DNA from: Rickettsia typhi
GTDB taxonomy: Bacteria > Pseudomonadota > Alphaproteobacteria > Rickettsiales > JABSSG01
Direction of reading: 5' to 3'
NCBI GenBank assembly: GCA_945877755.1
Contig: CAMCSP010000003.1
Span: forward strand, 1-35,947
DNA length: 35,947 bases
Shown: positions 421 to 24,493 of the stretch, piece after piece
Position numbering within the stretch: the stretch's first letter is position 1
Layout of the letters: every line of letters begins with the position of its first letter
Notes under the pieces: generated by a model
Seen by the model: only the letters and a program-made list of their open reading frames with translations
The model's database searches: none
What the model was told of the DNA's origin: nothing
Translations under genes and position numbers: made by a program

Positions 421-2121
421 TTATACAAAGCTATTTACATCTATCTGTTTGCTGTGATACTTCTTCAATTCCGTTGTATGAGCCATAGTAATTACAGTTG
501 AGTTTTTCAGATAATCACCAAGTAAACTAAACACAATTTTCTGCAAATCATCATCTAGTGATGAAGTTGGTTCATCCATAACCACCCATTTAGGCTTATG
601 TATCAGCAATCGAATAATTGCAATGCGTTGTTGTTCACCAGGAGATAAAATCATTCCCCAGTCCTGTTTTATATCAAGCGATTGAGTTAAATGACCAAGT
701 TTCAACAACTCTAATAATTTTATTATTTCTTCATCTTTGATTTTAATTTTGGATGGATAAGTTAGCACATTTCTCAGTGTAGAAATTGGCATATATGGTT
801 TTTGCGGAACGAAAAAAATCTGTTCAGATGGCAATAATATTTGCCCATGCCCATATGGCCATAATTCAGCTAAAGTTCTTACTAAGGTGCTTTTTCCAAC
901 CCCACTTTTGCCAGTGATTAAAATTTTATCCTTTAAGTTAATTTCAAAATTTATGTCTTTAATCAAAATTTTTCCTGTTGGGGTTGTAATAGTTAAATCT
1001 TCACAAACTAACTTTTTACCATTAGAGATAGTGACCAAAATTTTACTATGTTTACGCTGAATTTTTGCCTGATCTAAATGGTGTTCAAGTTGAATTAATC
1101 GTTGAGATGTTGCAAGCCATGCACTGATTATGGTAAATGATTTTACTATCATCGATAGCGAACCTTTTACCTGTTTAAATGCGTCAACTACTTGCATTAA
1201 TGTACCAAGTGTAAATACACCGATGAAAAACATTGGAGCGGCTACCAGTAACGGAAAGATTGTATCAAGCTGATAAAAAAGATTACGCCATATATCCAGA
1301 TAAAAAGTACGCATCACTATGGCATAAAAATTAGCTTTGATATCATCAAAGCAGTCTTTTAAGTTATGAATTTCAGGACTTATTTCTTTATGTAGTGCTA
1401 TTTCTTCACGTTTTTCACGAATTCTTACTAAAGAATAACGAAAATTAGCTTCATATTTTTCTTGGGCATAGTCTAAATGCACCAAAGGTTTCCCTATAAG
1501 AATAGTTATATAAGTTCCAACAATAGCATACAGCAATGCAATCCACACCAGATACCCAGAAACATCTATATTTATACCAATAATATTTTCTAGATTAAAG
1601 CTGCCTGATAAGTTCCATAAAATTACTAAAAATGAAACCAAGTTTATAGTCTCTTTAAAGAATACCAAAAATAATTCTAGGGAATTAAAAGCAAAACTCT
1701 TTAAATCCTCACTAATTCTTTGATCAGGGTTATCAGGATTTTGTGCTAACTGCATCACACGATAAAAATTATTATTCTTTAGCCATTTATGTGAAAGATG
1801 ATTAGTTAACCATTTCCGCCAAGTAAAACTCAAAATATTTTTAAAATAATAATTAATATTAAAAACAGCGACTAAAGCAAAAGTAATTGGAATAAAAACG
1901 AGGGCTTGTTTAAAAAACTCATGTTGGTTGCCATTTTGTAAGGCACTATATAGTTTATTATTCCATTGATTGATCTCAACAAACCCATAAACAATCAGCA
2001 AATTTGAGATCAATACTACCAACAGCATTGCCCAAGCTTTTAGTTTTTGATCAGATTGCCAAAATGGGATAATTAATTGCCAAATTAATTTGAATTCTGT
2101 GAATGAATTTTCAGCCTTCAT
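421..2121 (-). CDS. SbmA/BacA/YddA-type (ABCD-like) fused permease/ATP-binding ABC transporter; candidate flavin transporter by riboswitch association
   Basis: N-terminal membrane domain, then Walker A GKSGVGKST, signature LSPGEQQR and Walker B WVVMDEPTSSLD. The ORF track starts at a TTG (2127); the ATG at 2121 has AAGGG 8 nt upstream and is the better start. Confidence 0.88.
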   Translation of the reverse strand: MKAENSFTEFKLIWQLIIPFWQSDQKLKAWAMLLVVLISNLLIVYGFVEINQWNNKLYSALQNGNQHEFFKQALVFIPITFALVAVFNINYYFKNILSFTWRKWLTNHLSHKWLKNNNFYRVMQLAQNPDNPDQRISEDLKSFAFNSLELFLVFFKETINLVSFLVILWNLSGSFNLENIIGINIDVSGYLVWIALLYAIVGTYITILIGKPLVHLDYAQEKYEANFRYSLVRIREKREEIALHKEISPEIHNLKDCFDDIKANFYAIVMRTFYLDIWRNLFYQLDTIFPLLVAAPMFFIGVFTLGTLMQVVDAFKQVKGSLSMIVKSFTIISAWLATSQRLIQLEHHLDQAKIQRKHSKILVTISNGKKLVCEDLTITTPTGKILIKDINFEINLKDKILITGKSGVGKSTLVRTLAELWPYGHGQILLPSEQIFFVPQKPYMPISTLRNVLTYPSKIKIKDEEIIKLLELLKLGHLTQSLDIKQDWGMILSPGEQQRIAIIRLLIHKPKWVVMDEPTSSLDDDLQKIVFSLLGDYLKNSTVITMAHTTELKKYHSKQIDVNSFV

Positions 2122-2124
2122 AGT

Positions 2125-2156
2125 CAAAGCCCTTAATTTAAAAATTACAGGGTTTG
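2125..2156 (-). promoter_or_regulatory. RBS-sequestering hairpin of the riboswitch leader
   Basis: Minus strand CAAACCCTgTAATTT-TT-AAATTAAGGGcTTTG: about 14 bp with two single-nt bulges. It encloses the AAGGG Shine-Dalgarno and ends 3 nt before the ATG. Confidence 0.6.
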
Positions 2157-2248
2157 ACCAAAATAAAAAACTGTTACTAACTAAGCACCATAAATGTCAC
2201 TTACGTGTACATCAATCAACACCTAACAAGCAAAGCTCGTTTAAAAAT

Positions 2249-2396
2249 AGTCATCTTCTTTCATCCGGACTATAACCGTCGGCTTTGGCATCTCACCAAA
2301 TCTGCTGACCTTTTTCTTTGGAAAAAGCGCTCGCGGGCTCTTTTATTTTCAATAAAATACCGCCGGTAAGGAATTACACCTCACCCTGAAGATGAT
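2249..2396 (-). promoter_or_regulatory. FMN riboswitch (RFN element)
   Basis: Minus strand reads ATCATCTTCAGGGTGAGGTGTAATTCCTTACCGGCGGTAT...AGCCCGCGAGCGC...GGTCAGCAGATTTGGTGAGATGCCAAAGCCGACGGTTATAGTCCGGATGAAAGAAGATGACT. All conserved RFN blocks are present and P1 closes (ATCATCTTC / GAAGATGA). Confidence 0.97.
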
Positions 2397-22882: not shown

Positions 22883-24493
22883 TCAGTCATTAAATATAGT
22901 ATTTAAATAGGAAACAAGTTTATTTAAATCTATTGGCTGATTACGATAAGCAATATACCCATCTGGCCTTAAAAGATAAAGTCCGATTTCCTTAATTTCA
23001 AGCTGCTTAAAAATATTAGCAGTAGTGCTATAACTACCCGGAGATCCTTTTTTATCTTTTATAGTTAATAAATCTATTACGTCGTTATATTTTGTTTTAA
23101 TAAGCCTTTCTACATTCTCTGCATTATTATTTGTGGTAAAGATTAATAAAGTATGCTTGCGATCTTTTATAACTTTTTTAAGTCTGGTTTTTTTATATTT
23201 TTTGTCGAAAAGCTCTATGTCAGGAAATAAATCTCCTGCTTTAATTGAGTTGCAATTATTATCCCAATCTTCAGCAACAATAGGACTATGACGATAATTT
23301 AATTTTAGTTGCCCAATTTTATTTACAAGATTGCTTTTAAAGCAATCAAATTTGCATAATAAATATATCATTTTATTTCTAAAAAACCGTAAAATAGGGT
23401 TTTTTATTGATGTCATAATGGTCATTTGGTGAGAGAGTGCGACAACACTTTCCATTACTTTATATCTTTCTTGATGACTTTGTAATAATTCTTCTTTTGC
23501 TTTATTCATGAGCACAAGTTCCATTTTCCATGCTAGAGAATTTGCGTCTTGAATACCAGTGTTCATGCCTTGGCCACCAGCTGGGCTATGGATATGAGCA
23601 GAATCACCAATTAAAAAAACATTTTTAGAGCATAATTTTTTAGCCATACGATGATTAACTAAAAAAGCTGACATCCAGCCAATTTTAGTTATTTTAATAC
23701 CAGGTCCTGCTCTTTCGGTAACAATCTTTTGAAAAAAAGGTAAATTTAATTTTTTTTCCAATTCTTCGCGGTTAATATTAATATCATAATCTCCTATAAA
23801 CCTGACATGATTTTCACCCAATGGAAATACAGCTAAAAATCCATTCTCTGAGAAGAAAACATTCATTGAATCAAATTTTAATGGCCATTTTATATGTGCA
23901 TCTGCTAATATCCAATTTGTTTTGTACTGATCACCTACAAAATTGGTGCCCATTAATTCACGACAAACACTATGTGCTCCGTCACTACCAATCATATATT
24001 TAAACGATGTTTCTTCTATTTTGCCTTTGTCGTTTTTAATTCTTGCAACTACATGTCCATTCTCTTCGGCATAACTGGTTAGTTCAAGATTTCTCTCGAC
24101 CTTAACTCCAAGTTTTTCAAGATTTTTGATTAAAATTTGTTCAGTTTTATTTTGAGGAATGATCAATATAAAAGGATAAGTGCTATGAATATATTTTGTT
24201 TCAACGTGGCTTATGCGCTCTGAAATTTTGCTATAAGTATTAACAGCTTTTAGCTTTAGCCCCTCCTTTAGAAAGTCATTTAATAGACCAGCGCCTTCAA
24301 ATAATTCCAATGATCTAGGTTGCACACCTAAGGCTTTTGATTTATCTGATGGTTTAGATAGTTTGTCTATTATCCTACAGCTTATTCCGCGTCTAGTTAA
24401 TTCATGGGCCATTGCTAAACTACTAGGTCCGGCTCCAACGATTAATACATCAATTTTTTCTTTTTTGAGCATCTTTAATAAATTAACCTCCAT
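22883..24493 (-). CDS. FAD-dependent monooxygenase, PheA/TfdB-like, with C-terminal thioredoxin-like domain
   Basis: DVLIVGAGPSSLAMAHELTRRGISCRIIDK, GSDGAHSVCRE, VFLIGDSAHIHSPAGGQGMNTGIQDANSLAWKM, C-terminal YLLRPDGYIAYRNQP. Confidence 0.9.
   Translation of the reverse strand: MEVNLLKMLKKEKIDVLIVGAGPSSLAMAHELTRRGISCRIIDKLSKPSDKSKALGVQPRSLELFEGAGLLNDFLKEGLKLKAVNTYSKISERISHVETKYIHSTYPFILIIPQNKTEQILIKNLEKLGVKVERNLELTSYAEENGHVVARIKNDKGKIEETSFKYMIGSDGAHSVCRELMGTNFVGDQYKTNWILADAHIKWPLKFDSMNVFFSENGFLAVFPLGENHVRFIGDYDININREELEKKLNLPFFQKIVTERAGPGIKITKIGWMSAFLVNHRMAKKLCSKNVFLIGDSAHIHSPAGGQGMNTGIQDANSLAWKMELVLMNKAKEELLQSHQERYKVMESVVALSHQMTIMTSIKNPILRFFRNKMIYLLCKFDCFKSNLVNKIGQLKLNYRHSPIVAEDWDNNCNSIKAGDLFPDIELFDKKYKKTRLKKVIKDRKHTLLIFTTNNNAENVERLIKTKYNDVIDLLTIKDKKGSPGSYSTTANIFKQLEIKEIGLYLLRPDGYIAYRNQPIDLNKLVSYLNTIFND

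Follow-up and report, generated by a model that had tools for sequence, protein, structure and literature searches.

What does an FMN riboswitch control when the gene behind it encodes an ABC transporter of the SbmA/BacA type? When a transporter gene carries such a riboswitch, flavin uptake is the usual reading, and predictions of this sort have been borne out by complementation. Going by sequence analysis, we consider it likely that the protein encoded here imports a flavin and that FMN itself feeds back on its gene; the bacterium, whose gene content suggests the order Rickettsiales, would be a riboflavin auxotroph and probably depends on a host. The window, by which we mean the whole stretch of 35,947 nts analysed, is contig C3 of a draft assembly (1.26 Mb in 109 contigs, 94% complete). 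The first-pass annotation had described a textbook FMN riboswitch at about 2249-2396 on the minus strand, directly upstream of and co-directional with a fused transporter gene, with no gene between them, and it suggested an Infernal run with RF00050. That run (cmscan) finds the RF00050 model at full length (positions 1-138 of 138) at 2397-2249 on the minus strand, with 124.3 bits (E 7e-29) against a gathering score of 66.2 bits, so that the RNA belongs to the FMN riboswitch family. The description is accurate, including the start and end given for the 421-2396 feature. The aptamer starts 40 nts beyond the stop of ffh (2438) and ends 127 nts ahead of the ATG at 2121, and no gene lies in the interval between riboswitch and transporter gene. 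It is the only FMN riboswitch in the genome, and its score is among the highest in the 71 (of 395) alphaproteobacterial genomes that have an RF00050 match.

The leader carries signals on both sides of the aptamer. Between the ffh stop and the aptamer there is a promoter-like sequence of the sigma-70 type, TTGACA-N17-TATATT (2428-2400, minus strand), that matches the consensus at 11 of 12 positions and stops 2 nts short of the aptamer; on the two strands of the 36 kb together there are four sites of this quality. This promoter would place the transcription start at the 5' edge of the aptamer. Immediately upstream of the start codon, a hairpin (2160-2121, minus strand) with arms GGUCAAACCCU...AGGGCUUUGACU buries the Shine-Dalgarno sequence AAGGG (2134-2130), which pairs with CCCU and has an unpaired probability of 0.25 to 0.00. 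With a folding energy of -14.9 kcal/mol (z -4.66), the hairpin is not equalled by any of 200 shuffled sequences, and it is the most stable of 46 start regions, taken from long ATG-started ORFs of the same genome, some of them on non-coding strands (next -9.0, mean -4.4, standard deviation 2.7). The start of the transporter is best put at the ATG at 2121, which has the AAGGG ahead of it, rather than at the TTG at 2127.

The sequestering hairpin is what we expect of an expression platform, and the alternative on-state is only suggested. A CAGGGU in the aptamer (2388-2383) is complementary over six bases to ACCCUG in the hairpin (2153-2148) and could act as antisequestor. Part of this complementarity is expected: CAGGG is a conserved element of the aptamer, and its AGGG also occurs in Shine-Dalgarno sequences. 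When the CAGGGU/ACCCUG pairing is forced in equilibrium folding, the closed state is favoured by about 15 kcal/mol, and for that reason we offer the on-state as a suggestion. By eye, there is no similar hairpin upstream of the paralogue of the transporter gene or of two orthologues. Promoter, aptamer and hairpin together look like a dedicated FMN-off unit rather than a leftover. In such a unit, the promoter just past ffh would start transcription at the aptamer. When FMN is plentiful in the cytoplasm it would bind the aptamer, and the sequestor hairpin would keep the ribosome-binding site closed. When FMN is short the ribosome-binding site would open, perhaps through the antisequestor pairing, an Rv1819c-like ABC transporter would be made, presumably acting as a homodimer, and it would use ATP to move a flavin, be it riboflavin, FMN or FAD, inward through the inner membrane.

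The regulated gene (421-2121, minus strand) encodes a protein of 566 amino acids in which an SbmA/BacA-type membrane domain is fused to an ABC ATPase. The Pfam domains ABC_membrane_2 (PF06472, 9.5e-53), SbmA_BacA (PF05992, 9.2e-44) and ABC_tran (PF00005, 4.6e-18) are all above their cut-offs, and with PF06472/PF05992 the protein falls outside the RibN, RibM, RibU, RibXY, RfuABCD, ImpX and RibZ transporters. The Walker A (GKSGVGKST), ABC signature (LSPGEQQR), Walker B (WVVMDE) and H-loop (AHT) motifs are intact, and the residues of the nucleotide-binding core are invariant across 17 homologues. Compared with its closest orthologue (72% identical, in the congener G029) the gene has a dN/dS of 0.115, which shows purifying selection, of a strength that can only be rough since dS is near saturation. 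Rv1819c of Mycobacterium tuberculosis is the closest solved structure by sequence (E 4e-84). It is also the best fold match (6tqe, TM 0.82, about 30% identity in the fold alignment) to an AlphaFold2 model built from the 17 homologues (pLDDT 82.6, pTM 0.71), followed by ABCD3, ABCD1 and ABCD4. The ABCD proteins and MsbA also have folds of this exporter (type IV) kind, and one could imagine that the protein exports a flavin or another compound. We regard export as very improbable: a bacterium that cannot make flavin gains nothing by exporting it, FMN-off control would switch such a protein off just when FMN is high, and two members of the family, SbmA and Rv1819c, are importers. FMN-off control fits an importer.

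The bacterium apparently cannot make vitamin B2, as judged from its gene content. RibH is absent from all eight genomes of the family, one of which is 100% and another 99% complete. A query of RibD, RibE, RibBA and RibH taken from G035, which picks up the operon in both positive controls (G035 and G048), gives in the window genome only a 26-bit match to the deaminase part of RibD, most likely a tRNA adenosine deaminase. The loss of rib genes that the first-pass annotation proposed to look for is therefore seen, with RibH missing and no convincing RibD, RibE or RibBA. FMN riboswitch control in an organism without RibH is a combination that would be expected of a riboflavin importer, and it is the one found here. 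Within the family, lone GTP-cyclohydrolase-II-like frames of about 360 amino acids appear only in G073 (C6:108965), G085 (C113:6201) and G049 (C13:48253), where RibH is also absent.

The pairing of riboswitch and transporter is found in no relative. Searches of 8 genomes of the family, 378 of the order and 395 of the class show it in the window genome alone, and the transporter loci of the other family members (including the orthologues in G029 and G062) and of the paralogue have no riboswitch, even in a covariance scan at loose threshold. The conserved synteny that had been proposed as a check is thus not there, the pairing occurring in 1 of 378 order genomes. Five of these 378 have an FMN riboswitch, and in the four besides the window genome it precedes ribD. 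After the 69 other alphaproteobacterial FMN riboswitches that we checked, the 1.5 to 3.5 kb of sequence read contain no SbmA-type gene; the genes that follow are mostly RibH, RibB, RibD and RibE, with three RibN-like EamA genes, and the rest include one PnuC-like, one TonB-dependent-receptor-like and one unclear case. An SbmA/BacA gene is also absent from a survey of 842 FMN riboswitches (Table 1, PMC4418817), in agreement with the first-pass annotation, which knew of no member of this family among the riboswitch-linked flavin transporters. The pairing is rare and possibly unique.

A rival reading is that a rib operon was lost here and the riboswitch is its relict, standing by chance before an unrelated BacA/BclA-type transporter of host peptides or other large solutes. 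The ribD genes behind the four other riboswitches of the order speak for this, as does a crude aptamer tree that groups the window aptamer with those four, and its SbmA/BacA relatives are known as importers of peptides and drugs (PMC12003926). We find a relict unlikely: though the pathway is gone, the aptamer has kept its full length and scores with the best of its class, when decay would be expected. A promoter of its own stands before it, the ribosome-binding site that is sequestered is that of the transporter itself, and there is no remnant of a rib gene beside the aptamer. The dedicated flavin importer is also consistent with the case of RibZ, for which the riboswitch occurs in one species only, yet the protein rescued a riboflavin-auxotrophic E. 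coli (PMC4418817). In the same survey, two of the genes or operons behind FMN riboswitches have no evident part in flavin metabolism (PMC4418817), which leaves the flavin inference strong and not certain.

Other copies of the transporter bear on what it carries. A scan of the genome contigs with the transporter protein identifies one close relative (L058), the others being matches to the ATPase domain only; plasmid relatives among the best matches are below 40% identity. The second copy in the genome, on contig C14, is 59% identical and sits in the order ispG-transporter-ribF. The place of this paralogue next to ribF is one sign of a flavin cargo. G062 has ispG-transporter-two opposite genes-ribF-lspA, and in G001 the transporter lies a few genes beyond lspA. 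The protein tree unites all family copies except that of G073 in a single clade, in which the G029 copy is the sister of the window copy; synteny and tree conflict over which of the copies at the ispG locus are orthologous. Across the order, the presence of the transporter does not go with the absence of RibH (6/36 versus 12/107 in 143 genomes, Fisher p 0.39). On this showing the wider family is not one of flavin importers, and a flavin role, if real, would be confined to this branch. This lack of association with rib loss would also suit an uptake of broad specificity like that of Rv1819c (B12 and bleomycin), with flavin as one of several cargoes and FMN as a gauge of cofactor supply, and Rv1819c, which takes up corrinoids, is the nearest relative of known structure. 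We hold broad specificity to be quite unlikely, in that the FMN riboswitch is the only RNA signal found at the locus, with no cobalamin riboswitch, and the paralogue, as a neighbour of ribF, suggests flavins.

The transporter, read as a flavin importer, could bring in riboflavin if the flavokinase domain of RibF still works, and FMN or FAD if it does not. RibF appears split in this genome: contig C100 has its flavokinase domain, and contig C14 ends in its FAD-synthetase domain. By eye, the left ends of C14 (L027) and C100 (L054) look like the two ends of one IS-like element, with inverted ends CCTGGCTATGCAGTTGACTCC / GGAGTAAACTGCATAGCCAGG and an eight-base duplication AATTATTA at the domain boundary of ribF. 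Thus ribF appears to be interrupted between the FAD-synthetase and flavokinase domains by an insertion, which we take to be IS1595-like from its transposase; both domains keep open frames despite it. In G029 there is no match to ribF or to a flavokinase. With ribF apparently split here and a flavokinase missing there, preformed cofactor may come from the host, and we entertain as a tentative and rather doubtful proposal that the transporter was recruited to take up FMN or FAD, the phosphorylated flavins, and not just riboflavin. In G029 an ispG remnant is found immediately before the transporter (L025 8573-8977) and ribF is gone too; the isoprenoid and flavin routes appear to be decaying together there. 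Genome G049 has ribF and lacks both RibH and an SbmA/BacA-type transporter, which implies that another flavin route exists. An EamA-type protein on contig C6 of the window genome may be a flavin importer instead. It cannot be recognised as a RibN, since its identity to RibN is 26-28% and that among riboswitch-linked RibN proteins is 50-90%.

The transporter is the best candidate for the flavin importer of this bacterium, and it comes from a family not previously linked to flavins. Like other FMN riboswitches (RFN element, RF00050) under translational control, this one has a full aptamer and a Shine-Dalgarno-sequestering hairpin in the leader; unlike them, it regulates an SbmA/BacA-type ABC transporter, a kind of gene absent from the survey of 842 riboswitches (PMC4418817). 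The arrangement of a transporter gene after an FMN riboswitch is shared with RibZ (Clostridium difficile), RibN, RibM, RibU, RibXY, ImpX and RfuABCD, which belong to the MFS, EamA, PnuC, ECF and other ABC families; RibZ has the same limitation of the riboswitch link to one species and was itself confirmed by complementation. Rv1819c, a BacA homologue, has the same fused TMD-NBD architecture and differs in its cargo, corrinoids and bleomycin; we know of no FMN riboswitch for it. It imports vitamin B12 (PMC3603451). Members of the BclA/ExsE/SbmA/BacA family share the PF05992/PF06472 membrane domain and, unlike the flavin role proposed here, those studied import peptides or drugs; a 2025 survey of that family mentions neither riboflavin nor riboswitches (PMC12003926). 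For Rickettsia, a need to import FMN and FAD has been inferred, with no transporter identified (PMC5615194). The candidate bears on how flavin-auxotrophic intracellular bacteria acquire flavins. If true, it would widen both the list of flavin transporters and the cargo range of SbmA/BacA-like ABC proteins, and import of FMN or FAD would make it the first molecular candidate for their uptake in obligate intracellular Rickettsiales. Tagged by its riboswitch and coming from a family known to take up peptides and B12, the candidate lends itself to a direct test in E. coli.

In the first-pass annotation the protein was a candidate new class of flavin importer that takes up riboflavin, FMN or an analogue in a host-dependent bacterium. 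The wiring of the riboswitch, the absence of rib genes and the paralogue next to ribF support the importer; the orthologues without riboswitch in two congeners, an outcome that the annotation had listed as refuting, weigh against it, "class" is too strong a word for one genome, and substrate and direction are our inference.

The surroundings of the locus show some further differences. In G062 and G029, ffh is followed by a rhodanese-like gene, so that the riboswitch-transporter unit sets the window apart at ffh. Contamination or misbinning is unlikely, as the ffh and beta-lactamase genes are 78-79% identical to those of the congeners and the transporter 72% to that of G029. A FAD-dependent monooxygenase-like gene is two genes past ffh in G062 (L234 4063-5640) and 20 kb away in the window (22883-24493), a sign of rearrangement around ffh. 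Elsewhere among the alphaproteobacteria, an FMN riboswitch precedes a PnuC/NMN_transporter gene (PF04973, 1e-28) in a 2.0 Mb genome (L192, G485:C14:64480-68112); riboswitch-linked members of the RibM type have been reported only from Actinobacteria (PMC4418817). Another lies ahead of a TonB-dependent-receptor-like gene, about 375 nts from the riboswitch start (L168, G495:C114), a possible outer-membrane flavin receptor. Finally, the 3' end of the transporter at 421 abuts, end to end, a gene on the other strand (1-420, PF00905) that is the C-terminal part of a class D beta-lactamase-like gene of the beta-lactamase/transpeptidase type. Contig C29 overlaps exactly with the first 147 bases of the window and holds the N-terminal part of this gene, beside groEL.
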